The notes beneath the pieces are model-generated. The model was not told where the DNA came from, made no database searches, and worked only from the letters and a program-made list of their open reading frames with translations. From assembly GCA_903895195.1 (NCBI GenBank), contig CAITSZ010000005.1, positions 62,001-126,000 on the forward strand: 64,000 bases of DNA. Reading direction: 5' to 3'. The position numbers and the translations under genes are program-made. The stretch comes from an uncultured Chlorobiaceae bacterium. GTDB taxonomy: Bacteria; Bacteroidota; Chlorobiia; Chlorobiales; Chlorobiaceae. Positions 8,709 to 25,781 of the stretch are shown piece after piece (the first letter of the stretch is position 1; each line of letters opens with the position of its first letter).

Positions 8709-9296
8709 TTACTTCTCGTGATAACATAACTGTTTGGAGAGAGTGTCCGGGGTACAGTCGTCAGTAAGTTCTTTAGAGTCAGATGGAGCGGAAACAGTTA
8801 ATAGCTCTTCATTTTCCTGTTTTGGCATAACGTTTCCAAGGGACGCGAGCAATCCGTTAGTAATATGGTTCGCTGCCTCAAAGGTAAAGTCTCTTGCTGC
8901 CTTCTCCATCACCACATCCCCTTTGCTGATTACCTGAATTTGTTCAAGATGTCTCTGGAGTTCGTTCCAGTGAAACTTGACTTGGTTGACAAGAGTCATA
9001 CCATCAGGCATTAAACCAACATGCAACTGAAGTTTAAGCACGTCACAATATTGTAAGATGTCACCAATCGTAAGGGTTACATCCTGTGCATGTTCAATTT
9101 TCGAAACCTTGCTCTGCGTTATCCCTATTTTTTCGGCCAGTTCCTTTTGGGTTAATCCAGCCTTACTACGAAGTGCAAATAATGTTTTCGCAAGCTTTCT
9201 GGAGTTCAAAAACTTCACAAAACTGTCGCACTCTTCAGCGCTCGCATGCTTGGCATAAAGTTCACTCACGCTGCTATACGTTCTTCCGACAGCCAT
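8709..9296 (-). CDS. XRE-family helix-turn-helix regulator with extra C-terminal domain
   Basis: 195 residues from the ATG at 9294-9296, preceded at proper spacing by GGAGG. A GTG two codons earlier is less likely. Residues about 38-95 form a Cro/C1 HTH (LRSKAGLTQKELAEKIGITQ, then SKVSKIEHAQD). The N-terminal ~35 residues (VSELYAKHASAEECDSFVKF) and the C-terminal ~100 residues match nothing I recognise. It is the last leftward gene of the island. It may be autoregulatory: an ATATTC/GAATAT palindrome lies 85 bp upstream. Its relation to BREX is only positional, because a 511-bp gap separates it from the nuclease gene. Confidence 0.82.
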   Translation of the reverse strand: MAVGRTYSSVSELYAKHASAEECDSFVKFLNSRKLAKTLFALRSKAGLTQKELAEKIGITQSKVSKIEHAQDVTLTIGDILQYCDVLKLQLHVGLMPDGMTLVNQVKFHWNELQRHLEQIQVISKGDVVMEKAARDFTFEAANHITNGLLASLGNVMPKQENEELLTVSAPSDSKELTDDCTPDTLSKQLCYHEK

Positions 9297-9807
9297 TGTC
9301 ACCCTCCTTTGTTTTTCTTTCTGAATCGGCTGGATTTTTTTTCAAAAAAATCAGATTCTTGAATTTCCCAAACCCTCTTCATATTCAATATGAGAATATA
9401 TTTATATAATCAACACTAAATTTCAACAAAGAGTCTAAGAAAATATTCTGATTTGGAATAAAAAACGGATGAGGTGATAGTTACAAGCCTTAAATTTTGT
9501 TACGAATTGTCATATCCGAACCCCTGATATGGGACTTCAGAAAGGACTCTGCTGAGCACCTTATATTACGCTAAATATACAAATATTTTTAGGGTAGCAA
9601 AAACACCCCTCAAGCTCATCAAATCCACAGCAAAGCATGGCACTGAACTCTTAAGCTTTCATTCCCTCTCTCTGATCATATTGCTCAATTATGCGAATGG
9701 CTGTTTGTGGGCTTCATTCCAATGGAACAAGTAATTCCTTTTCAATTGTATTACACGGGAAGATATTTCATTTACTTATTCCTTCAAGTCTTCCCCATGA
9801 TCAATTG
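9297..9807. other. Non-coding gap at the 3' side of the BREX island
   Basis: About 510 bp, AT-rich, with no convincing gene on either strand. Holds an A/T-only hairpin at 9333-9352 (GATTTTTT/AAAAAATC), the palindrome at 9381-9398, and at 9573-9584 a 12-bp word (AAATATACAAAT) that recurs in the same orientation at 31034-31045 on the other side of the island. Confidence 0.5.
9381..9398. promoter_or_regulatory. Candidate operator of the XRE gene
   Basis: Inverted repeat ATATTC-6 nt-GAATAT in the leader region of the XRE gene, beside AT-rich promoter-like sequence. Size and spacing fit a dimeric HTH repressor site. Proposed from symmetry only. Confidence 0.35.
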
Positions 9808-10737
9808 CTATTCTAAAGCCTGGGCACTTAGCTGTGTGCCACAGTACCTTGCCCAAAGCATCATACTTAATTGCCGCAGTTCCCAGCTTATTTCCAAGAG
9901 CTGCATTCTTTCAATGAAATCCTGATATGTGATGACCTTGAATTTCTTGGTTCCATTTTTCAGCATACCTTGAAAATCCGATCCGGTATGCAATGCACTC
10001 CTATCATCTTGGTGACAGAACAGACCGGTATACACAAATTGCTTACCTCCCTCTTGAACAAGAGCCTCAGCTATAAGTTGATTACGGAAAAGCTGATTGT
10101 ACTTTGCCACCGTAAACTCTTTATACTCTGCGATAAAGGCACGCTCACGACCTTGTTGAAAAATGCTCTCGTATTCAGGCTTCGTGTGTTCTTTTGGAGA
10201 GAATGTGTCTGTATATTTGCATTCGAGACCAACGAGCCCATTTTTCTTGCCAATCATTACGTCAAAAGCCACATCGAACGCTGAATTGTCATTCGTAAAG
10301 TTTTCTCCGGGAGCGTATTCAAACACAACATTTCTGACTTCAGTCAATTCAGGCCAGAATTGCTGTAAAACTTTTAAAGCAAGATCTTTATCTGCTTTTA
10401 ACTCCCCAAAAAAGTTAAAACAAAGTGGCTGACTGGAAAGAAGATTATTGTATAACCGATTTTCTTCAAGTATGCCTGCTCCAGCATTTTTTCTCTCCTC
10501 AATTGTCAGGAGAACGGCATTCAGTATTTGTTTTGATAAAAAATTTTTGCGATAGGCATCAACAGTTCCATTCAAAATCGTATTACAGACTTTTTCTCCC
10601 TTTTGAACAGGATTATTGCCTTCATCTTCATTAAGAACGAAAGCTCTCCACCAACCTTGATGGAATCTCATTTTCTTTTTGAACCCATTGTCATTTGCAG
10701 GCAATTGACCAACCAGTTTTTTTAAATCAATTTTCAT
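9808..10737 (-). CDS. PD-(D/E)XK nuclease-like protein (PGN_0703-type putative restriction endonuclease)
   Basis: 309 residues. The central part has a plausible PD-(D/E)XK core: an acidic strand (NSAFDVAFDVMIG, about residues 151-163) followed by GLVGLECKYTDTF, which supplies the E-x-K pair. The flanking helices are rich in Q, E and R. This resembles a family annotated as putative restriction endonuclease of the PGN_0703 type; that assignment is from memory. It lies 119 bp downstream of brxL on the same strand, so it may be an accessory effector of the BREX locus or an independent passenger. No methyltransferase or immunity partner is adjacent. Confidence 0.6.
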   Translation of the reverse strand: MKIDLKKLVGQLPANDNGFKKKMRFHQGWWRAFVLNEDEGNNPVQKGEKVCNTILNGTVDAYRKNFLSKQILNAVLLTIEERKNAGAGILEENRLYNNLLSSQPLCFNFFGELKADKDLALKVLQQFWPELTEVRNVVFEYAPGENFTNDNSAFDVAFDVMIGKKNGLVGLECKYTDTFSPKEHTKPEYESIFQQGRERAFIAEYKEFTVAKYNQLFRNQLIAEALVQEGGKQFVYTGLFCHQDDRSALHTGSDFQGMLKNGTKKFKVITYQDFIERMQLLEISWELRQLSMMLWARYCGTQLSAQALE

Positions 10738-10856: not shown

Positions 10857-12920
10857 TCAAAAAAACACTTTCTTATCCTTCAAATACGTCACCTCAAATG
10901 CTTTACAAGGGCGGTACTGCTGGAGGCGATTGTTAAAGGTGAAGGTATCGTTCATTTCATAGTTCTGAAAAATATCAAGTCCGCGATCGAGCAGGATTTT
11001 CCAGCCATTGTCTGTCTCGATGTGGCGGGCGTGAATCGTGCCGGTTTTATCAAACTCCCAGGTAAAAGCTATACCTGCTGAATCGCAAGACTCTTTAATT
11101 TTTTCAAAGTTTTCTTTCTGTTGTTCACCTTTGAATTCGTCTTCTGTGGTGATTAAATGAACCGCAACCTCATCCTCAATTGGTTTATACTTCAGAACCG
11201 TTTCAAGGAGCTCCATGAAATTACGTACCTGATAGAAAAGACGGATATAAGGATCGGTGAGAGCTATCCTGCTTGCTCCGCTCAGGTAGTGACCAAAGAG
11301 GGTATCATAAGAAACTCCTCGCTGGTTCTCCTGAAAAGTCAGATGTTGCTCTTTGACTGTCGGGCCAGCAAAAGCTTGATTAACTTTTACCTCCGGAAAA
11401 TCAAGTTCAATACTTTCAGCCTTAGGAGTCACCCCTTCTGGCTCACCTATGGTTTTATTGTAGTAATGAGGATAGGTCTCTTCTTCGAGAGTTTTAACCG
11501 TTCTTGATTGACCAAAAGCATCCGTATAGGCAAAATGAACTGTTGGGTACGTAGTATCAATACGCATCACCTGATCTTTCACCCTTTTCCTTCCTTCGAT
11601 TGCGAACGTAAGCATCTCTTCGATCTCATCTTTTGAAGATCCTCCCTGAGGGAAAAGGATTTTCATAAGGCCAGAGAAGGTCTTGTTGATACCATCTCTA
11701 TCTCGTGTTGAAATATCGGAGGAGAGTGTAAAGTGCTCCTTATACCGATCTGAGTAGTCATGGTTGCGCATCGAGCGGAGAATTTCTGCAAGGTAATCGA
11801 CGACAAACCCATAACCACTGGAAAACATCTCACCGCGAATGATATCTATTTCCCACCCTGGAGCATAAAAATGGATACGGTCAAGAAATGCTGAGTCATA
11901 AAACTTTTCGGGCAGTTCATCAAACAGGTTTGAGTGCTTGAGCATATAGGGAACGGTATGCTGGGTGTTGCCAACGAAAACCATGGAAGCTTCTGCACCG
12001 AGGGTTTCAACCCCACGGGAGAAGGACTTGTTGGCCATGTAGTTTTTCATGATATCAACAAGTGCCTTATCGACACGCTTCTGCTTGCCTGCAAACTCAT
12101 CAAAGGCGACAACATCCCAATACCCAACCAGTCCGATTTTACCAGAAGAGTTACTCACAAAAAGCTTGGGCACTGTAACCTCGCCACCGGAAATAAGAAT
12201 ACCATGCGGGGAAAACTCGGAATAAATATGAGACTTCCCTGTCCCCTTCGGGCCAAGTTCAATAAGGTTATAATTACGTTCACAGTAAGGGATCAACCTG
12301 ATAAGTTGCGTCAGCTTGCTGCGCTTGCCAAACAGCTCCGGATTGAACCCGATGCTCTGGATGAGCAGATCAATCCACTCATCAGTGGTGAATTGCTTAC
12401 GGGCTTCGACATAGCCTTTAAAATCGAAATGGGAGAGCTGGATGGGTTTTAGTGTCGACATGATCCACGGTATCGCGTTCTTGTCTTCCTTGAATTCGTA
12501 TTCAATATCAGCAATGCACCATACTCCCCCGACCAGTAGTTTTGGATGGGTCTTGATTGTACCGGAATCTACCAGAACCTTTTTGATCCCGAGATTTGAA
12601 AACTCAGCCTCATAGGCATCAGTTTTATCATTGAGCGCAACACTGATCTTATCGATCACCTTATACCGTCCTTTCTCCTTGATATTAGAACGAACGAGCC
12701 CGGCTTCATTGCGATGCACATAGTGTTTACGCAGAATCTCCTTAACAGTCTCAATGCCAGTTTGAATCGAAGCCTCATCACTTGTCGCGCAATATTGACC
12801 TAACAGATATTCAAGAACGTAAGTTGGAACAATGGCGTTGCCTTTGACGGTCTTGACAAGATCCTTGCGGACAACGAGTCCGGAGAAATGAGTGTTTATT
12901 TTCTGATCAAGGGTATTCAT
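10857..12920 (-). CDS. brxL: BREX system Lon protease-like protein BrxL
   Basis: 687 residues, matching BrxL length. The AAA+ Walker A motif GPKGTGKS lies at 223-230 and the Walker B region reads VVAFDEFAG shortly after. The N-terminal ~200 residues and the C-terminal Lon-like portion follow the Lon-related TIGR02688 pattern. BrxL is a DNA-binding AAA+ protein of type 1 BREX and contributes to phage restriction. It is the last core BREX gene here, 17 bp after pglZ, so the two are cotranscribed. No degradation was noticed. Confidence 0.92.
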   Translation of the reverse strand: MNTLDQKINTHFSGLVVRKDLVKTVKGNAIVPTYVLEYLLGQYCATSDEASIQTGIETVKEILRKHYVHRNEAGLVRSNIKEKGRYKVIDKISVALNDKTDAYEAEFSNLGIKKVLVDSGTIKTHPKLLVGGVWCIADIEYEFKEDKNAIPWIMSTLKPIQLSHFDFKGYVEARKQFTTDEWIDLLIQSIGFNPELFGKRSKLTQLIRLIPYCERNYNLIELGPKGTGKSHIYSEFSPHGILISGGEVTVPKLFVSNSSGKIGLVGYWDVVAFDEFAGKQKRVDKALVDIMKNYMANKSFSRGVETLGAEASMVFVGNTQHTVPYMLKHSNLFDELPEKFYDSAFLDRIHFYAPGWEIDIIRGEMFSSGYGFVVDYLAEILRSMRNHDYSDRYKEHFTLSSDISTRDRDGINKTFSGLMKILFPQGGSSKDEIEEMLTFAIEGRKRVKDQVMRIDTTYPTVHFAYTDAFGQSRTVKTLEEETYPHYYNKTIGEPEGVTPKAESIELDFPEVKVNQAFAGPTVKEQHLTFQENQRGVSYDTLFGHYLSGASRIALTDPYIRLFYQVRNFMELLETVLKYKPIEDEVAVHLITTEDEFKGEQQKENFEKIKESCDSAGIAFTWEFDKTGTIHARHIETDNGWKILLDRGLDIFQNYEMNDTFTFNNRLQQYRPCKAFEVTYLKDKKVFF

Positions 12921-12937: not shown

Positions 12938-15472
12938 TTAAAAATCAAAATCGCTCGTAAATGACCGCCTCATCAGATATCGGATTGACTTGTATTCGCT
13001 GTAGTGGGAGGTGCCTGGGTATTTTTCATCCAGCCTCAAAATAACCTCCTGACCATTGACCTCATCAGCTTTGCTGGTAAGGACGAAACGTACCTGCCGT
13101 TCACGATCCCGCGAGTTATCGGAGATGACATCAAAAACAAGGGTATGAAAATCAGAAATACGATCACCAGTAAGGGTATAAATACCTGCAACAAGAGTCC
13201 TTGCCTGAACTTTTGCGGTAACCGGCTGCGATTGATAAAGCACAACAGCCAACTGGCCGGATGTAATAACTGAACTGGTTCCTCGAATAATATCCACGTC
13301 GACGGCAGAGATATCACTCTGACGCTTTTTGTTAATCCTGACAATCGGAATCACCACCTCCTGCAACGATGCGCCACCGTGCACAAAACGACTGCCAGAT
13401 CCTTTAAGGCGCAGCCGGTTGATCGATTTTGGAATCAGTACCTCCATCTCTCCCGACAGTCCAAGCTGAGAAGAGCTAAACTTCCTTAGGCTTGAACTCT
13501 CGATGAGTCCTTTGCCAAGCACAAATCGCCGGTCACGAAAGAGAATCTCCTCTCCATCAGCTTCATTTCCCGCAAAATCGCTCTCGTCAAGAGCACGATT
13601 CTGGTATATAAATCCATGATCAGCCGTCACCAATAAGTTATTGGCGTTAGCCCCTGTAAGCTTTTTGATAAGCTTGACAATATCCTGCAATGTATCCTCA
13701 ACTGCCTCGAAAACTCTCTCTTCCGATTCACGCTTATCACCGGTTACGTCAATGCGATTATGGTAAACATAAATCACATCGTGCTCACGGAGCAATGTCC
13801 GACACTCATCACTTTTGAGAGCCATAATATCTTCAGCCTTTACGGCAGCACCTTTCCATGACGCGGTTCTGTTGAGAATCTTTGAGCGATTCGACGTGCC
13901 TTGAGAACTAATATTATCCGCTAACACCGTTCCTGTATCGTTGTCGGCAAATGCCAGCACCCGGTTTGGGAGAAGCGCGGCCATTCCAAGCTGAGTATAG
14001 CTCGGAAGCATTGAAAGTGCAGGCTCTAGAGTAGCATCATATCGGTCTTCCTGCCTTATAAGAGAGAGTAATTCATCGCCGATTTCGTAGCGCAATGCAT
14101 CAGAAATAATGACACAGACCTTATTATTCTTTAAGAGAAATGGGTCTATAAATCGTTCGAAAACACTTCTCTGTAACGGTACAGGAGGCGCCTCCCATGT
14201 ATCAGCTTTGTCCACGAAAGCCTGCCAACGATCATTCAATTTCAGGAGGAAGTTGTTGGAGTAAAGATTTTCAATTTTATCACTCAGTTCGGCCATCAGC
14301 GAAGCCTGCCCGGACATGCTGACATGGAAAATGAATTTGCGATAACATTGATCGAGCCGAAACCAATGGCGACTGTAGAGCTTCACCCCGTCAGCCATAG
14401 AGCTCATTTCCAGCTTTGCCTCTTCGAATGCCTGCATAAAATGTGCAGCATACTCTACACCTTCGTAATGGTGCTGAAACTCTTTATACCAGTGGCCTTG
14501 ACGGCGCTGGCGTATCCATTGCGCTATCTCATGGCTGAACGCCGTCTGAGTTACAAGAGCCCGAACCAGATCACTGATAATTTTCTTGTCAATCAACCGA
14601 AAATAATCGAGTTCAATCAGTTGACGGAAATCCAGATCTTCCAGCTGTTGTTCAATACGGAGAATCTCTCCGCACTCTTCAGCACGCGCATCAAAGCATT
14701 TTTCAAATGTGCGGCTGTCTTTCCATCGCTTCAGAAACACCAGCGCATCACTGGATAGCGAACCCGGGGCACCAATACCTACGGTAAAGCAGTATTTGAA
14801 AAGCTCAATAACAAAATCCTTCATACCGGGCTCAGATGATTCGTAGCCATAGCTCCGCTTCATAAGCTCCCAGAAATACCCATCGAGATGACAGCGCTCA
14901 ATCAGACGATACTTGTCGCCATCCAGCAATTCAAGACCTAATTGTTTTTCTTTCGAAGCGTTCCCCGCCAACTCGTCCAGCAGATGTTCCACCAAAATAT
15001 CCAGCCGTGGTTCAGATCCGGCACAAACCCCGAGCATCTTCAAACGGATTATTCCAGGTGTATCGTCCGCCTTGAGCAGTTGCCTGAGGCTCTCAATCCG
15101 CTTGGCAGACCTGTAGAATTCAGGATGATCCTTAACCACGTCCTGAAACTCATGGCCAAGTTCCAGTTCGGAGAGCCATAGGCCAACTTGATCAGCACGA
15201 AAATCCCCATAAGCAAGCTCTACATCCAGCAGCCAGTTATCCAGCTTTTCAGGCTGAGCCCCTTCACGATAGAGCAGAAATTTCTGGTCAGGCTGTTCAC
15301 GAAGAATCCGATACTTCACGCCAAACTCGTTGTTGGCAAGTTCAATTTTTTCAACGCCTTCAAGCTGCAAAGCGTCGAATGCGGCACGCAACTCCTTCTT
15401 TACGTCATTCCAGAAAACAATGCGATGACGATCGAATAGCCGACTTAGCGCCTGCGTAATGCGGTCACTCAT
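12938..15472 (-). CDS. pglZ: BREX alkaline-phosphatase-fold protein PglZ (type A)
   Basis: 844 residues, the normal length. The N-terminus (SDRITQALSRLFDRHRIVFW) is typical of PglZ. The phosphatase-like domain shows CVIISDALRYEIGDELL in the middle and LLVTADHGFIYQNR about 180 residues later, the metal-binding blocks of the PglZ domain (PF08665). PglZ is a core component of all BREX systems; its exact reaction is unresolved. It follows a 182-bp gap after fic that contains a symmetrical repeat array (15555-15648), so pglZ-brxL probably has its own promoter. Confidence 0.94.
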   Translation of the reverse strand: MSDRITQALSRLFDRHRIVFWNDVKKELRAAFDALQLEGVEKIELANNEFGVKYRILREQPDQKFLLYREGAQPEKLDNWLLDVELAYGDFRADQVGLWLSELELGHEFQDVVKDHPEFYRSAKRIESLRQLLKADDTPGIIRLKMLGVCAGSEPRLDILVEHLLDELAGNASKEKQLGLELLDGDKYRLIERCHLDGYFWELMKRSYGYESSEPGMKDFVIELFKYCFTVGIGAPGSLSSDALVFLKRWKDSRTFEKCFDARAEECGEILRIEQQLEDLDFRQLIELDYFRLIDKKIISDLVRALVTQTAFSHEIAQWIRQRRQGHWYKEFQHHYEGVEYAAHFMQAFEEAKLEMSSMADGVKLYSRHWFRLDQCYRKFIFHVSMSGQASLMAELSDKIENLYSNNFLLKLNDRWQAFVDKADTWEAPPVPLQRSVFERFIDPFLLKNNKVCVIISDALRYEIGDELLSLIRQEDRYDATLEPALSMLPSYTQLGMAALLPNRVLAFADNDTGTVLADNISSQGTSNRSKILNRTASWKGAAVKAEDIMALKSDECRTLLREHDVIYVYHNRIDVTGDKRESEERVFEAVEDTLQDIVKLIKKLTGANANNLLVTADHGFIYQNRALDESDFAGNEADGEEILFRDRRFVLGKGLIESSSLRKFSSSQLGLSGEMEVLIPKSINRLRLKGSGSRFVHGGASLQEVVIPIVRINKKRQSDISAVDVDIIRGTSSVITSGQLAVVLYQSQPVTAKVQARTLVAGIYTLTGDRISDFHTLVFDVISDNSRDRERQVRFVLTSKADEVNGQEVILRLDEKYPGTSHYSEYKSIRYLMRRSFTSDFDF

Positions 15473-15554: not shown

Positions 15555-15648
15555 TTGTGTATTACAGAAACGTCACAAAATAGTTAGTGTATTATATAAA
15601 TCATTTTACGATACACAAAAGACTTTATGAATGACAGACGATACACAA
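15555..15648. promoter_or_regulatory. Four 8-bp motifs, two forward and two reversed, each pair 30 bp apart
   Basis: TTGTGTAT at 15555-15562 and its one-mismatch copy TAGTGTAT at 15585-15592 face forward. The reverse complement ATACACAA occurs at 15611-15618 and 15641-15648. Same-orientation copies are exactly 30 bp apart, close to three helical turns. The array fills the gap between fic and pglZ, upstream of pglZ on the minus strand. It looks like a cooperative operator. The binding protein is unknown; the Fic protein's winged helix or the island's XRE protein are candidates by position only. Confidence 0.55.
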
Positions 15649-15654
15649 CACTTC

Positions 15655-16758
15655 CTATAAAAGGCGCTTTCCTTCTGCAATGTTAATCAAAGCAGGGAAG
15701 CAGAGAACAGCCGCACTTCGACCTTTTCCTTCTTTCAGGTTAGATAAAATTCCTGACGTTTTCAGTTGCCGGAGAAGTCCCATTGCTGTGGGCTTGTGAA
15801 TGCCTGTTTCACGGATAAAGTCAGTAGTCTTAAAAATCGGACGATTGAAAATAGCGTCTATGATCTGAATGCTGTACTGGGAATGCGTAAGTTCCTGAAC
15901 GCGAACCTTTATCTCCGCATAGAGACCCATAATATCCCTGACTTTCCGGCTATTCTCTTTTGCCTGCATCACAATGGCTTGTAAAAAAAATGCGATCCAG
16001 CCGTTCCAGTCGCCACGGAGAGATATACCGTGTAGTGCCTGATAGTATTCTTCCCGATGAGACTCAAGGTAAGAGCTCAGATAGAACATAGGCAGCGAGA
16101 GTTTCTTTTTTTGATAGAGAAACAGGGGGATCAGGATTCTGCCAATTCGTCCATTACCATCTTTAAACGGATGTAACAGTTCGAACTGCGCATGCACAAT
16201 GGCTGTCTGCAAAAGCAGGTCAATGTCGTTTACTGCAAGATAGTCCTGCCATTCATTCAGGTGGTCAACAAGATGGAGCGGATTAGGTGGCACAAATGAA
16301 GCCTGATCGATGGAACAACCGGCTTGACCAATCCAGTTCTGATCTTTTCGAAACTCTCCGGGAGTCTTGTCCTGACCACGAACGCTGTTCAACAGTACCT
16401 TGTGCAACTCCCTGACAAAAACCAAGGTAATCGGTCTCCCTTCAAGATAGTTGTGTGCCGAACGCAAGGCTTCGCGGTAATTGATTATTTCCTGAATATC
16501 CTTGTATTTTTCACCTTCTTTCACGAGACCCGCTTCCTGCTCCAGTACCTCGTCAACCGTTGCCTGTGTGCCTTCAATTCGGGAAGAGAGTACCGCCTCT
16601 TCGTTGGTTAGTGGAGAGAGCATAATGGCTGGGTTGACAATACCTTGCAACAGGCCATCATATCGTGCAAGCTCGGCATTGGCCTCACCAACCAGGGCGA
16701 AAAGTCGCTGGTAATCCAGCCCCGAAAGAGGCAAACTGTCAGGCTCATAGGGTTTCAT
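15655..16758 (-). CDS. Fic-domain AMP-transferase with N-terminal inhibitory motif and C-terminal winged helix
   Basis: 367 residues. The Fic catalytic motif HPFKDGNGRIGR starts at 196. The inhibitory (S/T)xxxE(G/N) motif is present at 58-63 (SSRIEG), as in class II Fic proteins that inhibit themselves. The C-terminal ~90 residues read as a winged helix (TDFIRETGIHKPTAMGLLRQ). Fic proteins transfer AMP or a related group to target hydroxyls. It lies between the Shedu gene (21 bp upstream) and pglZ. Such genes recur in defence loci, but a direct part in BREX is inference. All catalytic residues look intact. Confidence 0.9.
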   Translation of the reverse strand: MKPYEPDSLPLSGLDYQRLFALVGEANAELARYDGLLQGIVNPAIMLSPLTNEEAVLSSRIEGTQATVDEVLEQEAGLVKEGEKYKDIQEIINYREALRSAHNYLEGRPITLVFVRELHKVLLNSVRGQDKTPGEFRKDQNWIGQAGCSIDQASFVPPNPLHLVDHLNEWQDYLAVNDIDLLLQTAIVHAQFELLHPFKDGNGRIGRILIPLFLYQKKKLSLPMFYLSSYLESHREEYYQALHGISLRGDWNGWIAFFLQAIVMQAKENSRKVRDIMGLYAEIKVRVQELTHSQYSIQIIDAIFNRPIFKTTDFIRETGIHKPTAMGLLRQLKTSGILSNLKEGKGRSAAVLCFPALINIAEGKRLL

Positions 16759-16779: not shown

Positions 16780-17985
16780 TTAAGCCAAATCGCGTTGACT
16801 GTTTTTCAATAACATTGTTATCATGTTGTTTAAACGCCGCAAAAGGTCATCATAAGTCATTATATCCATAATATTTGCGTATTTCCTCTTTATTATTTCG
16901 AAATCAAATTTCTGATCGTCGGCAAAGTCGCAATCTCTGCCAAGAATAATCATCCCTTTTGGATTTGTGATTTTAATTTCAAAATTCTGGGGTAACTCAT
17001 CTTTTCGTTTTTTCATAATATCTAACTCACCTGGCCTACCCCATTTATTCAGATGAAATAAATACTTCTCTACTTGCATTACAGAACCTGAAAGTTCAGT
17101 TCTTGGAGTGTAATTATCCCTATACTTGGTTTTTGAAAGCAAACAATTGTTGAAGGGCTTTTTAATCTCAATAATATCGATCGTACCACTTGCATCGACA
17201 AGGGTCAAGTCTATATAACGATCTTTGGTTTTATCTGGACTCGAATAGAAATCCTTGACGTGTAAGTTTTCAAGTACAGCAACGTATTTCGGAAAAATAA
17301 GAAGAAGAAATTTTATGATCAGTGTCTGCCATGCTTTCTCGTTATAAGCATCAGGGTAAATAAGCATGGCAAGCAATTCATCACGGACATATTCAAACTT
17401 CTTGTATTCATATTCATTCAGATTATTGCCTCTCGATTCAGCCGAGATTGCTTGTTTTTTTTGTAAGTACTTTTCAAAAATCTGTTGAGCATCAGACATC
17501 GACCCAAGATAATCTTTCAATGTCCTCGTAATTCTAGCATTCGCGTAATAAGTTAATTCAGTAGTGTTTGGAAAGTTTTTCAATAGTGCGTGAAAATCAC
17601 TTATCGGAATAGAGCCATCAGCATCACCACCAACTACAATAGGTTTATCGATTAAGTCATCAATTTTTTCAAAAACAGAGATATCCCTAGGAGCAACAAA
17701 AGTTTTTGTACATATCTTCATCTCTTTTACAAGAAATAAGTCGTATTTAAGTTCCAGAATATCCCGATCTATTTTGTAAAAATTACCATCCAGAACTCCC
17801 AAAACAAACGTACGGTTATTATCATCTAAGCTATCTTCAACAAGCTCCTCTTTATTAAATGAAAAGATTCGGCAAATTGTCACGCAACCCTCATTATTTA
17901 ACTTGGCATCAATCCAAGTTGCATCAGGATTTTTAGATGTATATCTGAGTAGAAGCCGACGACCTTGCTTAAAAATCTTGATCAT
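16780..17985 (-). CDS. sduA: Shedu defence nuclease SduA (DUF4263)
   Basis: 401 residues. The C-terminal ~200 residues match the Shedu/DUF4263 PD-(D/E)XK nuclease. E239 lies in VAVLENLHVKDF, D259 in KDRYIDLTLVD, and the E-x-K pair in IDIIEIKKPF (E273, K275). A conserved-looking NPKGMIILGRD segment follows. The N-terminal ~180 residues vary between Shedu proteins and probably sense the trigger. Shedu is a single-gene anti-phage system acting as an oligomeric nuclease. Here it sits inside a BREX operon, 200 bp after the pglX C-terminal half and 21 bp before fic. Catalytic residues seem intact. Confidence 0.83.
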   Translation of the reverse strand: MIKIFKQGRRLLLRYTSKNPDATWIDAKLNNEGCVTICRIFSFNKEELVEDSLDDNNRTFVLGVLDGNFYKIDRDILELKYDLFLVKEMKICTKTFVAPRDISVFEKIDDLIDKPIVVGGDADGSIPISDFHALLKNFPNTTELTYYANARITRTLKDYLGSMSDAQQIFEKYLQKKQAISAESRGNNLNEYEYKKFEYVRDELLAMLIYPDAYNEKAWQTLIIKFLLLIFPKYVAVLENLHVKDFYSSPDKTKDRYIDLTLVDASGTIDIIEIKKPFNNCLLSKTKYRDNYTPRTELSGSVMQVEKYLFHLNKWGRPGELDIMKKRKDELPQNFEIKITNPKGMIILGRDCDFADDQKFDFEIIKRKYANIMDIMTYDDLLRRLNNMITMLLKNSQRDLA

Positions 17986-18185: not shown

Positions 18186-19946
18186 TCAATCCTCTTTTGA
18201 ATCAAGGCCAGGAATCTTTCTGAGAGCTGGACCAAATTTTTGGTAGTTCACTTTTACACCGTCGTCGAGGTCTATTTCGAGCTGTTCAGTGGCAAGGGGG
18301 TAAAGGATTTCTCGCTCATAACTGTCGAGCTCTTCGATAATTTTCCTGATACTTTCGATCTCTTTGAGTGCCTTGGTCTTCTCCCCCGGTGATGCACTGG
18401 CGCTGATGCTTACCGCTTCGATATGGTTCTTCTGGGTGGTCAGCTTTATACGAAACTCGCGCAGGTAGTTGAGTACAACGCTCACTGTATCCGAACGGTA
18501 GCGGTGCATGTAGATCAGTGCATTGAAACTTCCCTTTGAACTGCTGAAAAGCCAGTAAATCGGACGTTTTTTATATCGGCGTACATGATCGTTATAGAAG
18601 TCCTTCAGGAAATACTTACGGATATTCTTACCAAGCGCAACCTCGATAAACTTCAGATTCTCCTCGTAATGCTCATCGCCAAAGGTAAGGCGCAGAAACT
18701 TGCTGAACCGCTCAGAGATGTCGTCGGTGAACCAGTCGCCGTCGAGGATGGGGATGACGTTGTCAACATCAGGGAGGAAGATGGAATCAGTTGGCAGTGG
18801 GCAGTTGGCAGTTGGCAGGTTTTGGTAGGCCCTGACATGATTCCAGTAGTCCTCGATAGTTTCGCCTTGATTGGCAAGGATCAATCCGGGTTTATCGAGT
18901 GAGTAACGGCCAAACATGCAGCCAACAGCGTAGGAGACAAATTCCTTCATTGTGTCAGCCAGCAGCAGCACTTCAAGCTCTTCCGCGTTTTTGTTATTGC
19001 TGTAGCGATAATGCGGGTTGCATGTCAGGGTAATTTCACTCAGCGGCACCTCGGGCGTCAGTTCATCCTTCAGACCATAAGCATCGATAAAAATGCGGTT
19101 ATTCTCTTCCTCCAGGCGCTGCATCTCCAGCGTCATATCCCGCCAGTGGGCGCGGAGACCATTGTATGTGGCTTTCAGCGTCGAGTGGCGATAATCAGAT
19201 TGTAAAAGCGGAAGATAGGTAAAGTCCCAAGAAGTCTCGTATGAGTCCCAATCAGCTTTTGATTGTTCGAATAACGTTATGTATTTGGCGCGATGCTCAG
19301 AATTAACCCTTATTAAAGGAAGTTTTTTAAGGATTTGAGGCGTCACATTGAGTGTCGGGTTAAGCAACTGAATTAGCATTGCAGAAATTTTTGAATTCAA
19401 AAATCCCAATGCATCGTAGAGGCTATTCTTGTCATTTGAAAACAGAGCAAGGCCTGCTGAATCGAAAGAAAAACCTTCAGGGTAAAAGCGAAAACTTGAG
19501 GTACTAGATGTTATTTTTGACCATCCGACGTGTTCTTGGAAATAGTATTCCTTCCCATCATGTCTGAATCCTAGGTTTTTTTGCATTTCATGAAGATGCA
19601 CCTTAGAATACTTTAAAACAGCATCCAAATTGCCCATCCATTTTCTAAATTCTCCACCCTTGTTATGCGGGACATAGTCATATCTCTTATCCAGATATTT
19701 ACGAATGAGATCAAATTCAACCTCTGGCCATGACAGTATAAATACTTCGTTTTTACCGGTACACATCCCAGCTTTAATCACAAAAGCCGACTCAAATGTC
19801 TCTTCATTTGAGAAAAGTCCTCTGACATTATTACTCACCCAATACGCTATCGGACTACCAGAAATTTTTCTAAAATCGTCGGCTGAAACACGAAAGAAAA
19901 AGCGCTCTGGTTTTTCGGCGGAAAGTATATGCTCTTCATTCTTCAT
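18186..19946 (-). CDS. pglX: PglX C-terminal half (separate gene)
   Basis: 586 residues from the ATG at 19944-19946; a TTG at 19955 is an alternative. It begins just before FFFRVSADDFRKISGSPIAYW, the segment that in one-piece PglX follows the methyltransferase domain. It continues to the normal C-terminus with FLPDVDNVIPILDGDWFTDD and KRPIYWLFSSSKG, the recognition/C-terminal part. It has no methyltransferase motifs. Its start overlaps the 3' end of herA by 11 nt, so translation is probably coupled to HerA. With the N-terminal half it totals about 1184 residues, close to a whole PglX. A heptanucleotide repeat lies within it (18788-18819). Confidence 0.88.
   Translation of the reverse strand: MKNEEHILSAEKPERFFFRVSADDFRKISGSPIAYWVSNNVRGLFSNEETFESAFVIKAGMCTGKNEVFILSWPEVEFDLIRKYLDKRYDYVPHNKGGEFRKWMGNLDAVLKYSKVHLHEMQKNLGFRHDGKEYYFQEHVGWSKITSSTSSFRFYPEGFSFDSAGLALFSNDKNSLYDALGFLNSKISAMLIQLLNPTLNVTPQILKKLPLIRVNSEHRAKYITLFEQSKADWDSYETSWDFTYLPLLQSDYRHSTLKATYNGLRAHWRDMTLEMQRLEEENNRIFIDAYGLKDELTPEVPLSEITLTCNPHYRYSNNKNAEELEVLLLADTMKEFVSYAVGCMFGRYSLDKPGLILANQGETIEDYWNHVRAYQNLPTANCPLPTDSIFLPDVDNVIPILDGDWFTDDISERFSKFLRLTFGDEHYEENLKFIEVALGKNIRKYFLKDFYNDHVRRYKKRPIYWLFSSSKGSFNALIYMHRYRSDTVSVVLNYLREFRIKLTTQKNHIEAVSISASASPGEKTKALKEIESIRKIIEELDSYEREILYPLATEQLEIDLDDGVKVNYQKFGPALRKIPGLDSKED
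18788..18819. repeat. Heptanucleotide tandem repeat inside pglX-C
   Basis: Four units of CAGTTGG (the second is CAGTGGG) plus a partial CAGG. On the coding strand they encode NLPTANCPLPT, a low-complexity insert between RAYQ and DSIFLPD. Such heptamer repeats are familiar in cyanobacterial and some other genomes. Because the unit is not a multiple of three, gain or loss of one unit would frameshift pglX-C. Confidence 0.75.
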
Positions 19947-22092
19947 CTGTTTCAATTTCTAATTTTTCGCTTTCAGTTGAGCCGTCTGGAGTAAGATTGC
20001 TTTGAACCTGTTGCCAGTCATCCGTTATTTTTTTCCAGTCAACAGCCCTCTGACAATCAACTTCCTTGCCCAAATCATTTTTACCTTTGCCAGTCCAAAC
20101 CGCCCAAAAATCAGGGTCATCTGATTTTGGTCGCTGTTGTTCTGGTATAGAGTTCATTTGAACTAAAATCGGTAATTCAGATGCCCAACCAAGAAGAATG
20201 GCATTGCGCGTGGGTAAGGAAGGGAGATCGCGCAGAAGACCATGCAGATTATCCGACACCAATTTCTGCACCAACTCCTGATCACGGTCATTACTTATCC
20301 TATGTAGTAAAAAGCTATTGCACTGGGACAATACAGTTGGGGAAAGCTCGCTTGGGCGCTGCGAAGAGAGTACCAGCCCTAATCCATATTTACGGCCTTC
20401 ACGGGCAATTTTCTCAAAAACCTGGCAACAGACGGTAGCGGCGTCGTAATTTTCCGCATCATCCTTATAACGCTTAATAAAAGTATGGGCTTCTTCCATA
20501 ACCAGTACAGTCGGCAATGTTTTTTTCTGGTCATGAAGTTTTCGATATCTCTGTAATGCCTCAAAGGTAATACGAGCTATCACGGCAGTAATGATATGTA
20601 CCACTTCAGTCGGAACCAATGAAAGATCAATCACGGTAACGGTGCCATTGGAAGCCTGATTATCACCGATATAATGATTTAACCAGCCATCTAAGGTGAC
20701 ACCATCAGTATCTCCAATAATTGTTTTTAATTTTGAATCTGATAGCATAGTCCGAATACGCAGTATCATTGTTTCCACATATTCCGAAACATTTAGCATA
20801 TCCGCATTTGCAACAATACTTCGCAATAAAGCGTCTCCCTTAAACTCTCTTGGAATATCAGCATCAATCGGTAAAATATCGACATCACTTCCACCAAACG
20901 CAACATGTGCATTTTTAGCCAAACAAAGCAATTCGTCTATTTCTGTTTTTGAAAAGTCCTGATTTGAGTATGTGACACTTCGAGCTGTTGTAAAATCGTC
21001 TATTTTTTGCTTGATGCATTTCAAAGCAAAGAGCTCTTCTTTGGTGAATGAATCTTCTTCCAATAACCCTGATTCATTCCATTTTTTTATTTTTTCGTTA
21101 AAATTTTTATTAAGAGGGAATTTACCCCAAGGTGTTCCTGCATTACGCTCATGCTGAATGATACTTACAACTGTCCGTAAAAACCGGCGCATTTCATTGC
21201 TTGGCGCAAGAGTCGCATCAATTGTTCCGTCACGTACAGAGCGAAGAGAATGAATCAATGTCGGCTTTTGGGTTTTACTCGTAGCTTGCGTAAAAGCGCT
21301 CCACTCATGGGTATTCCAAAACCATAAAGGTATTTGTAGTTGGTTGATAGTATCGCTAGGCTCTACTGCAAAAATTCGTGCACATATAGTATCCTTAAAC
21401 GCATGAGCATATTCTCCATTCGGATCAAGTATGATGAAACGTGCATTAGGATTTTTATCTTTTTCGCATTTCTTTTTAGCCTCCTCAAGTGACCAACGAA
21501 TCAAGCCTGCAACTGAACAAGATTTGCCACTACCGGTATTTCCCAAAACGGCAAGATGCCTGCCAAAAAGACGATCAGGATTAATCTTTACATCAGCATT
21601 GCCTGCCAAAGGGCTAATGCCAATTTTCACTCTTCGGTTTCCACCCGATTCAACAATAGATCTTAGTTGATGTTGAGTCGGCAACATTACTGGATCACCT
21701 ACTGATGGAAAAGCTTCAACACCTCGTTTGAAAATATATCGATCCTCATCATTTTCATCCTTCCCGTCATAAAACAAAGAACCGAGTGGGTTTAGACACA
21801 TTTTTCGAAGCGGATATGGCAAATCTATCAAGCCAAAGTCCTGCATACCTTTACGTTTCGGATACTGGGAGCGCTCTACGGTAATCCATTCTACCTGTCC
21901 CACCAGATAACCCTGGTCGCTAGGGATTAGCACATAACTGTTTATTCGAGGAAAAGGTCGAGGTGAACCAGTGTTCAATGCCACACTTTCAGGCGCATCA
22001 ATATCAAGTAAGACCTTAATTTCATCGGGAGATACAAAATCGATGATACCGATTCTTAGAGAATCTGCATAGGCAAGTGGTGAAAAGCTCAT
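19936..22092 (-). CDS. herA: HerA-type ATPase/translocase of a SIR2-HerA defence pair
   Basis: 718 residues. The N-terminal ~150 residues form a HAS-barrel-like domain. The FtsK/HerA core has Walker A GNTGSGKS at 184-191 and Walker B LVMEEAHTFI about 350 residues later. The arginine-finger region reads KIAREGRKYGLGLVLSSQRP. HerA proteins are hexameric DNA translocases. Paired with SIR2 proteins they form an anti-phage complex that depletes NAD+ and/or cuts nucleic acid. The start overlaps the SIR2 stop as ATGA. The stop lies inside the first codons of pglX-C, so the gene is embedded in an unbroken translational chain. Confidence 0.9.
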   Translation of the reverse strand: MSFSPLAYADSLRIGIIDFVSPDEIKVLLDIDAPESVALNTGSPRPFPRINSYVLIPSDQGYLVGQVEWITVERSQYPKRKGMQDFGLIDLPYPLRKMCLNPLGSLFYDGKDENDEDRYIFKRGVEAFPSVGDPVMLPTQHQLRSIVESGGNRRVKIGISPLAGNADVKINPDRLFGRHLAVLGNTGSGKSCSVAGLIRWSLEEAKKKCEKDKNPNARFIILDPNGEYAHAFKDTICARIFAVEPSDTINQLQIPLWFWNTHEWSAFTQATSKTQKPTLIHSLRSVRDGTIDATLAPSNEMRRFLRTVVSIIQHERNAGTPWGKFPLNKNFNEKIKKWNESGLLEEDSFTKEELFALKCIKQKIDDFTTARSVTYSNQDFSKTEIDELLCLAKNAHVAFGGSDVDILPIDADIPREFKGDALLRSIVANADMLNVSEYVETMILRIRTMLSDSKLKTIIGDTDGVTLDGWLNHYIGDNQASNGTVTVIDLSLVPTEVVHIITAVIARITFEALQRYRKLHDQKKTLPTVLVMEEAHTFIKRYKDDAENYDAATVCCQVFEKIAREGRKYGLGLVLSSQRPSELSPTVLSQCNSFLLHRISNDRDQELVQKLVSDNLHGLLRDLPSLPTRNAILLGWASELPILVQMNSIPEQQRPKSDDPDFWAVWTGKGKNDLGKEVDCQRAVDWKKITDDWQQVQSNLTPDGSTESEKLEIETDEE

Positions 22093-23570: not shown

Positions 23571-23988
23571 TTGTTATTCTCCTTATCCTTGCCTGCCGAG
23601 GTTAACAAAGCCCTGCCTTTTCCGCTCAACCGGTACTTCTGCAATCGACTGTCTTATTTTCCGGGATGGTTCGTTCGATCAGTCCCTGCTCCAGCAAAGA
23701 CAGAATATGCCGCCGGAAGTTCATATACGCATCGCTTAAACCTGCCGCATTGGGCAAGTCAAACCTGCTTTGTGATTCTGCCAGACAGGATCGCAACATA
23801 CACCACACTTGCTCACTGACTTGCTCATTGACTTGCTCACCAACTTGTGCCGCATGCATTTCGACTTGTGCTTCGACTTGTGCCTTGACTTGTGCCTCGA
23901 GTAATTTCGTAACGACAAAAATGAGGCATCTTAATTCAAGTGTTTTCCCTTCTGATTGAGTAAGGAGGTTATTCAAGAAATCGCTCAT
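23567..23988 (-). pseudogene. Frameshifted, internally deleted remnant of an AlbA_2/Schlafen-like gene
   Basis: The readable frame (23626-23988, 120 residues) starts MSDFLNNLLTQSEGKTLEL, like the beginning of an AlbA_2 DNA-binding domain. It then jumps to a tandem EQV/AQV tract and a winged-helix end, ILSLLEQGLIERTIPENKTVD, before stopping early. In the next frame the expected family ending continues as LQKYRLSGKGRALLTSAGKD, and the stop lies at 23567 as ATGA on the SIR2 start. So one base was lost (or two gained) near 23641-23650, and most of the AlbA_2 domain is missing. It also starts as ATGA on the pglX-N stop. Confidence 0.75.
23807..23899. repeat. Seven 12-bp tandem units encoding EQV/AQV repeats
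   Basis: Units begin ACTTG on the plus strand (ACTTGCTCACTG-like, then ACTTGTGCCTTG-like): three, one diverged, a 9-bp interruption, then three. On the coding strand they read EAQV, KAQV, GEQV, NEQV and SEQV, a likely helical linker. In-frame 12-bp units can vary in number without frameshift. Confidence 0.8.
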
Positions 23989-25781
23989 TGTATAATAGCC
24001 TCCTTCAACATACGATCTTTTTCAGCTTCACTTTTACCATCAACCAATCGAATGAATGCACCTCTATAGTCGGGAATATATCCGCTTTCCAGAACAAACG
24101 CCGTCGTCGAAACCACTTCGCCTCCAATACTGTCAAAGCCACGGGCACCCAGGTGAGCCATCGAGAGAATAGTCGCGTTATCGAGCAGTTTTTCACGAAG
24201 CTTTTCAAAGCTCGAAAGGAACATCCAGCTCTGCATGGTGATCATCGCCACAGCTCCATGCTTTTGAGCCAAATCAAGATTGCGCTCGATAAACATAGCG
24301 AAGAGGTCTGACTTGCTGTCAGGGTAGTTCTCTTTTACCCATGCGGCAAGGCTTGGATTCATCCCCTTACCACCCATATACGGCGGATTTGCAATCACAA
24401 CATGGTATTTCGAGCTCAGGTAATCGGCCTGCTGCAGGGCTTGCAAAACCTTCTGATGGGTTGGGCTCAGGAACAGTTGTCCTGAGACGTTTTTCGATTC
24501 CAAAATCCTCATCATACCTGAAACATCATTGACATCCGGTCGAATCAAGGAACCAAAGTTGTCGGCCTCTTCAAACTGGTTGAGGGTAGTCTGCAGCGGT
24601 GCTGTGAACAGATCACGCCCGATGAAATCCATGTAGTCTTTGAGTTCGCTCTCATTGAAGTGGACATTCTCGAGCACGCAGATATTCGGCTTGACGCCTT
24701 TATTGAAAAACCGACGCTGCCTGCCACGGGCCTTCATGGTCAACGCAAATGCCGCCAACTCCCCTGCCCGTTCATCGATTTCGATGCCGTAGAGGTTGTG
24801 CGTCAGTATCTTTTCCGGTATTTCAGACGGGTCGTACCCCTCTTCTTCATAGATGGCGTAAAGCAGATCAAAGGTATAGGTAAGAATATGGCCTGAACCG
24901 CAGGCCGGATCACAAATTTTTATCTCTTCCGGCTTGCCAATATGCAGAAAGTCACTCTCAGCCTGCTCAGGTTTAATGTAGTACTCCATCTGCTCAACCA
25001 GCTTCGAATTAGGGCGGTTGAGCATCCAGAGACGACCCAGTGAGTTCTCAACCAGATAGCGCACAATCCAGTGCGGCGTGAAAAGCTGAGTGGCTGCTGG
25101 AATATTCTCCGGAGTAATCTTCTTGTTCTTCTTTAAATCATCAAATACCTTGTCCTTTTTCTCGGATATATAGAACTGGTAGAGCCAGCCAATAACCTCG
25201 ACATCCTGACAGACATCCGGTGTCATTGCCTCGCGAGTATAGGCAAGAATGGAGTTGCCCGAAAGAAGGTCATCGGGCATCAACAACTCGGTATAATCAG
25301 CAATTTTTTCAAACAGGTACGGCATCGACTTGTTGAAGTCGTTGCACGCGGCAACCACTAACAGGCGGTAGGCCTCAGACTGTGGATCACGGCTTGGCGA
25401 TGAACCGCCGAGCAAGGCAAATATCTGTTCGCGGGTCTTCTCAGGCACCATCTCTTCATCAATATGGCCCATCTTGGCCTCAGCCAGAATTTCAGGCTGA
25501 AACTGCCCTTCGGCTGGCGTTATGATGCCGATTCGAGTGTAACGGTTGACATCCATAAAACGCAGGGCACAGAACCGGTTGAACCAGATATAGGCGATCC
25601 GTTCGATCACCTGTTCTCTGCCATGACCCTGAATCTGCTTTTCAAGCTCAGCTATCGCTTTTGCTTCTTCACGCCGGGCAGCACTGCCTTCCGTCAACAC
25701 CAAATTGAGTTTGGAAGAGACTTGCTCAATCAAACTGCGGCGTGCAAACTGGGCGAATTTTTTAAGTTTAGATGTTTCCAT
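23985..25781 (-). CDS. pglX: PglX N-terminal half: BREX adenine-specific DNA methyltransferase domain
   Basis: 598 residues. Carries the N-terminal PglX segment (about 1-230) and a gamma-class N6-adenine methyltransferase core: the SAM-binding motif DPACGSGH at 291-298 and the catalytic NPPYMGG at 465-471. It ends FIRLVDGKSEAEKDRMLKEA plus three residues, where ordinary PglX continues into its C-terminal domain. The stop overlaps the next ATG as ATGA. PglX methylates a non-palindromic site to mark self DNA and is essential for BREX. The missing C-terminal half is a separate gene at 18186-19946, so activity would need assembly of the two polypeptides. Confidence 0.92.
   Translation of the reverse strand: METSKLKKFAQFARRSLIEQVSSKLNLVLTEGSAARREEAKAIAELEKQIQGHGREQVIERIAYIWFNRFCALRFMDVNRYTRIGIITPAEGQFQPEILAEAKMGHIDEEMVPEKTREQIFALLGGSSPSRDPQSEAYRLLVVAACNDFNKSMPYLFEKIADYTELLMPDDLLSGNSILAYTREAMTPDVCQDVEVIGWLYQFYISEKKDKVFDDLKKNKKITPENIPAATQLFTPHWIVRYLVENSLGRLWMLNRPNSKLVEQMEYYIKPEQAESDFLHIGKPEEIKICDPACGSGHILTYTFDLLYAIYEEEGYDPSEIPEKILTHNLYGIEIDERAGELAAFALTMKARGRQRRFFNKGVKPNICVLENVHFNESELKDYMDFIGRDLFTAPLQTTLNQFEEADNFGSLIRPDVNDVSGMMRILESKNVSGQLFLSPTHQKVLQALQQADYLSSKYHVVIANPPYMGGKGMNPSLAAWVKENYPDSKSDLFAMFIERNLDLAQKHGAVAMITMQSWMFLSSFEKLREKLLDNATILSMAHLGARGFDSIGGEVVSTTAFVLESGYIPDYRGAFIRLVDGKSEAEKDRMLKEAIIQ

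Follow-up and report, generated by a model that had tools for sequence, protein, structure and literature searches.

A 30-bp-phased array of inverted half-sites beside fic in a Chlorobiaceae BREX locus: a putative operator of a SoFic-type Fic protein

Here, we focus on a short intergenic array in a bacteriophage exclusion (BREX) locus of an uncultured Chlorobiaceae bacterium. The window, that is, the whole stretch of 64,000 nucleotides that was analysed (GenBank assembly GCA_903895195.1, contig CAITSZ010000005.1, positions 62,001 to 126,000 of the forward strand), is referred to as locus L182 and its 2.49-Mb source genome as G000; other loci and genomes carry L and G numbers in the same way. 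Along the direction of transcription, the gene order is the pglX N-part, a 120-amino-acid (aa) open reading frame (ORF), sir2, herA, the pglX C-part, sduA, fic, the array, pglZ and brxL. The array is contained in the 182-bp gap between the stop codon of fic (15655) and the start codon of pglZ (15472), both genes being on the reverse strand (table 1). It probably serves as an operator for the SoFic-type Fic protein encoded next to it, whose C-terminal winged-helix domain is the putative binder.

Six half-sites between fic and pglZ

A sequence-only reading of the window had described an operator-like array in this gap, made of four copies of an 8-bp word. All four are present, three as TTGTGTAT and one, inexact, as TAGTGTAT. 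Copies in the same orientation lie exactly 30 bp apart and the inner, opposed pair start 26 bp apart, giving a two-fold symmetric 30-26-30 layout that suits the cooperative binding proposed by that reading; the description ‘helically phased’ holds only approximately, the spacings being multiples of 10 and not of 10.5. The array is also bigger than first noted. It comprises six half-sites, at offsets 0, 30 and 70 in one orientation and 16, 56 and 86 in the other, which form three inverted pairs of 24, 34 and 24 bp and span 94 bp; the two weaker half-sites, A′ and D, had been missed. Across loci, the extra inverted site, at offset 16 counted from each end, agrees with the array word in 5.3 of 8 letters, and words at the 14 other offsets do so in 1.9–3.6 (60 half-arrays from 30 loci; L251, L237, L238, L290 and L287 omitted).

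To score the layout without reference to any word, four 8-mers at 0, 30, 56 and 86, the last two inverted, were compared (maximum score 48). The array scores 45, the top position of the window, the next unrelated position reaching 34. When the intergenic region was dinucleotide-shuffled 2000 times, no shuffle attained 45 (largest 35); nor did any of 1368 symmetric layouts tried on each shuffle of a set of 60, among which the highest score was 37. The exact word occurs six times in the window versus 1.74 expected (100 shuffles, largest 5), three of the six being in the array, and the 11-mer TTGTGTATCGT has three exact occurrences in the genome, two in the array and one in the sir2 gene. The genome-wide count that the sequence-only reading had proposed places TTGTGTATCGT at background when up to one mismatch is allowed (25 occurrences versus 21 for the reversed control), and a genome-wide regulon was rejected for this reason; the layout itself is conserved in relatives. 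Scanning viral contigs with 16-mers produced 55 exact hits (a count only), and Escherichia coli genomes gave no DNA match.

Inverted repeats directly beyond stop codons, at a junction between variable cargo and pglZ, might instead mark an RNA hairpin, a terminator or a mobile or recombination element at the 3′ end of defence genes. This is highly improbable. Direct copies are about as alike as inverted ones (0.74 versus 0.68–0.81), as protein half-sites, in contrast to a hairpin, would be; the array had no match in Rfam and no terminator was found at it; and 10 DUF262-type homologues outside Chlorobium BREX loci have no array. The last result (0/10) also led to rejection of a DUF262-linked element.

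Table 1. Coordinates of the array and of surrounding features in the window.
Feature	Position	Strand	Remark
Half-site A, TTGTGTAT (11-mer TTGTGTATCGT)	15641–15648	−	6 nt beyond fic stop codon
Weak half-site A′, TTATGAAT	15625–15632	+	6/8 match; offset-16 test across loci
Half-site B, TTGTGTAT (11-mer TTGTGTATCGT)	15611–15618	−	kept in BREX relatives
Half-site C, TAGTGTAT	15585–15592	+	kept in BREX relatives
Weak half-site D, TTGTGACG	15571–15578	−	offset-16 test across loci
Half-site E, TTGTGTAT	15555–15562	+	block with highest conservation
Weak promoter-like match inside array	15603–15631	−	points to pglZ; 1 found, 0.9 expected
fic	15655–16758	−	SoFic-type, 367 aa, C-terminal winged-helix domain; candidate binder
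pglZ	12938–15472	−	start 82 nt downstream of array; candidate target
brxL	10857–12920	−	downstream of pglZ
sduA (Shedu)	16780–17985	−	immediately upstream of fic
pglX, N-part	23985–25781
pglX, C-part	18186–19955
120-aa ORF	23626–23988
XRE-type gene	8709–9302		end of BREX operon
PDDEXK_13/REase-ARP nuclease gene	9808–10737		end of BREX operon

Attachment of the array to fic genes

The window Fic carries Fic_N, Fic and SoFic-like_C domains, all above the Pfam cut-offs, and its translation contains the catalytic motif HPFKDGNGRIGR, a Fic motif also described in the part of PMC2686095 available to us. The protein matches the PADLOC SoFic model over residues 1–361 (3.7e-112) and aligns with solved SoFic structures to residue 347, i.e. 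into the C-terminal domain.

The first owner of the array is the fic gene, not pglZ or BREX; the array follows fic in loci that have no BREX system. In G001 and G003, Chlorobiaceae of another genus, a 78%-identical fic with no BREX nearby is followed at its 3′ side by the same four 30-26-30 copies, which supports the earlier naming of Fic as a candidate binder. In G002 the array is kept at the 3′ side of an ORF that ends in a match to the Fic C-terminus (by eye). A search for the three-word layout as a pattern found it in nine of 98 genomes versus none of 98 for the reversed control; in the wider phylum (394 genomes), the pattern was matched in 17 genomes and its control in three. Matches in G127, G139, G220 and G226 lie just upstream of a fic homologue; those in G134, G156, G270 and G355 are not linked to a fic gene and may be due to chance.

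In a word-blind test of 58 fic loci (350 bp per side, 60 shuffles), the score for the fixed layout was higher than in any shuffle on the 3′ side of fic in the window, L183 and L184, and on the 5′ side in L236–L241, L246, L247, L249 and L252, with additional weaker cases. Summed z over 609 layouts peaks at a spacing d1 of 30, with 92.0 at 30/24 (standard deviation 12.7; 32 fic loci of at least 36.5% identity, 3′ side only for L182–L184 and 5′ side only for the remaining loci); neighbouring even values of d2 represent the same array, read with a displaced word window. Of 28 plasmid records that contain a fic homologue, 10 were covered.

Three variants were seen in passing. In G002 (L224, 4035–4319), a DUF1016-like N-terminus, named by eye, is seemingly fused to the last residues of Fic, with the array still 3′. 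Arrays flank a single fic gene on both sides in G226 (L229, 6539–7810), where the 3′ array has two different half-site words. The more distant fic genes of L244 and L248 are flanked, on one side or on both, by different repeated words (TTGCTGGCCA and TTGCTTCCCG, respectively), in layouts that escape the 30-bp score.

The attachment extends to other phyla. A Proteobacterial sample taken after the layout had been fixed (398 genomes) yielded 23 fic loci at E ≤ 1e-70; p values here and in further phyla rest on 100 shuffles each. A 30-bp-phased array is present in the 3′ flank at p ≤ 0.02 in 15 of the 19 loci with at least 48% Fic identity. Among the four at 38–39% identity, none has a 3′ array and one (L290) has a 5′ array; a further 5′ call, in L283, looks spurious. 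All four of L264–L267 (viral contigs, Kiritimatiellae and Desulforhopalus) have the array, and L268, with a fic of 36% identity, has none; in Kiritimatiellae, as in Chlorobiaceae, the array is found 3′ of fic where BREX is absent. Nearly all of the 15 Proteobacterial 3′ arrays begin −4 to +12 nt from the fic stop codon, and in averages over the flanks d1 = 30 alone stands out (29.7 versus 24.2–26.0).

While the register is constant, the word varies between lineages (TTGTGTATCGT, TTGTGTACGGT, CTTATTCTAAT and others) and changes with the recognition helix of Fic: IHKPTAM is found with TTGTGTATCGT, INRGTANAMLR with TTGTGTACGGT and EQSTQTIYNL with CTTATTCTAAT. Word similarity correlates with recognition-helix similarity (Spearman 0.64), and the partial correlation given the rest of Fic is 0.18, with 31 of 2000 Mantel permutations as high. 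In the underlying survey, 35 of 50 loci reach a score of 33, a threshold that admits some false positives. L251 (score 34), judged spurious by its words, was omitted from the co-variation test, as were L237 and L238, near copies of L236; L287, a partial protein, was omitted from the Mantel test.

The genes flanking 3′ arrays were surveyed in 21 loci (19 Proteobacterial loci, L266 and L267), in 18 of which the downstream ORF was readable. Nine of these 18 downstream ORFs have a Pfam Type III Res or Type I HsdR domain (L266, L269, L270, L273, L275, L278, L285, L286 and L287), and in all but L285 an array at p ≤ 0.02 lies between fic and the restriction gene. In 7 of 20 loci (L267, L269, L273, L276, L278, L285 and L286), the upstream ORF encodes either a DNA methylase domain or one for Type I specificity; the remaining neighbours are unrelated or have no Pfam match. 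The array belongs with fic, because orphan fic genes, L272, L281 and L282 among them, likewise have 3′ arrays. Judged by gene order, fic–array–restriction gene parallels the pglX–fic–array–pglZ–brxL arrangement, and the position of the array suggests that it may gate the restriction half.

A 3′ position with no consistent downstream promoter could also fit a docking or holding site, at which array-bound Fic is inactive or switched by DNA binding and is freed by phage attack on the DNA, transcription control being secondary. DNA binding does alter the AMPylation (adenosine monophosphate, AMP, transfer) activity of Coxiella CbFic2, according to the available portion of PMC10628234. We consider such a site very unlikely: placement before restriction genes in eight of the nine such loci, and the 5′ arrays on the promoter side, better suit transcription control.

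The array upstream of pglZ in relatives

Among 98 genomes of the order, 13, counting the source genome of the window, have a pglZ with identity of 67% or more. The sequence-only reading had proposed looking in relatives for the same array upstream of pglZ, and within the genus this is partly borne out: the three-word layout (B, C and E) is present in 6 of the 13 loci (G000, G037, G038, G064, G066 and G085). The D–E block alone remains in G080, the gap before pglZ appears decayed (by eye) in G078, G040, G054, G056 and G067 have no word directly before pglZ, and in G073 the pglZ start is absent from the contig. In G037 and G080 the array lies approximately 1.9 kb before pglZ, with two genes between. 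Five of the six three-word loci have no fic before the array; the gene in that place, where readable, is of DUF262/HNH type (named from sequence by eye), and copy A is missing from fic-less pglZ loci. Half-sites are 88–100% identical in 15 of 15 pairs compared, versus 50–83% at four-fold sites of pglZ and 57–94% between half-sites, a comparison that left out the decayed arrays L100 and L106 and so favours conservation. Separately, G038 has an orphan degenerate array after a DUF262-like gene remnant (L126, around 1500), with no pglZ nearby.

Beyond the family, the expectation failed. Of 80 pglZ upstream regions, 77 were long enough for a general test, and 11 of these pass p ≤ 0.02 on the 4-site score. 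Three are real arrays (L002, L004 and L005); the other eight have words unlike those of the array, seven in frames open for at least 78 codons and L007 in one of 57 codons, and six of the eight (L009, L014, L016, L025, L038 and L053) have the same coding-like words. Three further regions (L039, L041 and L076) pass on the 3-site score alone. The 70 non-Chlorobiaceae regions contain no convincing array and a spacing of 30 bp does not stand out clearly in their mean score, the seven above the 4-site cut-off being non-matching words in long open frames. An operator general to pglZ was rejected on these grounds.

These loci bear on another account, in which a BREX-specific regulator distinct from Fic uses the array as its operator at the pglZ–brxL promoter, and fic merely came to lie alongside. 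The five Chlorobium genomes with an array and no neighbouring fic speak for it, as does the half-site conservation seen there, with the omission of L100 and L106 already noted. We nevertheless judge it unlikely, given that this layout is also found after fic where BREX is absent and in other phyla, that pglZ outside Chlorobiaceae has no array, and that no candidate regulator gene is common to the array-bearing loci examined. Adjacent Fic is the binder that we favour.

Some features of the surrounding genes deserve mention in their own right. The window pglX is split into two ORFs, with the 120-aa ORF, sir2 and herA between them; other genes occupy the split in L100, L101 and L102, and L103 has one intact ORF of 1234 aa. 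The 120-aa ORF resembles both ends of a longer winged helix-turn-helix protein, which is 495 aa at full length in L101 and shortened in L100 and L106. At the end of the BREX operon, the gene for an XRE-type helix-turn-helix (HTH) protein adjoins the nuclease gene; as a possible binder this protein was considered on its annotation alone, with nothing for or against it.

Proposed role and comparison with known systems

If the array is a Fic operator, the winged-helix domain of Fic would recognise the TTGTGTATCGT half-site and Fic dimers would fill the three inverted pairs cooperatively. We infer that Fic itself is the binder and that, once bound, it would lower transcription, or set its timing, at a promoter within the array or close to it. 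Given the place of the array between fic and pglZ–brxL, bound Fic might adjust pglZ–brxL expression and perhaps that of fic. Control of pglZ is plausible by analogy, as is gating of the back half of BREX when compared with the fic–array–restriction gene loci; orphan fic genes with arrays, and the several fic-less Chlorobium BREX loci that have one, weigh against assured control of pglZ.

Several observations count against the operator reading. Simple autorepression would not lead one to expect the usual 3′ position, the sole promoter match in the array is no more than chance would give, and the spacing of half-sites in CccR (discussed below) differs from that of the array. Four of the 19 closer Proteobacterial loci do not reach p ≤ 0.02 (L279 at 0.04; L280, L284 and L285 miss). 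A search for fic at E ≤ 1e-40 found no match in G038, G064, G066 or G085, all of which have the array upstream of pglZ, and no fic remnant was found in these loci; in G037, fic is only distant and its recognition helix is different. Finally, word similarity follows the rest of Fic (0.76) more closely than it follows the helix, and because of this higher raw correlation the co-variation of helix and word is taken to reflect shared descent in part.

A wider proposal, which we regard as possible but doubtful, is that SoFic-type Fic proteins are toxin-controllers: a conserved module of fic and a six-site array would be set between the modification and restriction halves of Type I, Type III and BREX systems, and Fic would time or gate the restriction half and serve as a back-up AMPylating toxin. 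The operator reading accounts for a puzzling array in a BREX locus and gives a widespread anti-phage Fic family a candidate operator that can be tested. It points to a common regulatory tie between a toxin of the abortive-infection type and the restriction half in each of three kinds of defence system, a way in which a toxin-like defence protein could control neighbouring genes. Since the layout is fixed and the word lineage-specific, arrays should be predictable and testable in culturable hosts.

Timing of restriction relative to modification has a well-known counterpart in the controller (C) proteins of Type II restriction–modification systems, small HTH proteins with no enzymatic domain that act through cooperative operators. 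The fic–array–restriction gene order suggests a similar job. Unlike C proteins, the candidate regulator in the window is an AMP transferase with a winged helix, and the setting is Type I, Type III and BREX loci.

Regulation of a BREX island through inverted repeats, as proposed here for Fic, is also a property of BrxR, a WYL regulator of BREX. According to the available part of PMC9122601, BrxR acts at brxR/brxA through 11-bp repeats with a 5-bp spacer, and no pglZ promoter was detectable in that system. The window array differs from the BrxR R-box in spacing, on which ground a BrxR box was rejected, and no WYL regulator was matched among the ORFs annotated around the window BREX operon.

By its model match and structural alignment, the window Fic resembles SoFic (Shewanella oneidensis SO_4266) and the SoFIC anti-phage gene. 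To our knowledge, no operator is known for SoFic. The available portion of PMC10628234 states that DNA binding by SoFic has not been demonstrated experimentally.

By analogy, the closest precedent for a Fic operator is the autorepression of CccR of Yersinia pseudotuberculosis, a Fic protein with a C-terminal HTH that acts through AGATAATCAT-N26-ATGATAATCT, requires dimerisation and leaves a 46-nt footprint (PMC9755527, as far as available). Like the CccR operator, the window array has widely spaced, two-fold symmetric inverted half-sites beside fic, and the CccR half-site AGATAATCAT shares an inner ATCAT with the array variant TTGTGTATCAT of G226. The CccR operator, as described in that source, lies within the cccR promoter and is a single pair of half-sites, 10 bp each with a spacer of 26 bp, whereas the window array has six half-sites in three pairs and lies 3′ of fic (5′ arrays occurring in other genomes of the phylum); fic arrays, unlike the CccR operator, are usually 3′ and often precede a restriction gene. 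In the literature searched, much of it available in part, we found no account of SoFic-type genes with an array that is multi-site or lies at the 3′ side, nor any of Fic as a controller of hsdR or res.
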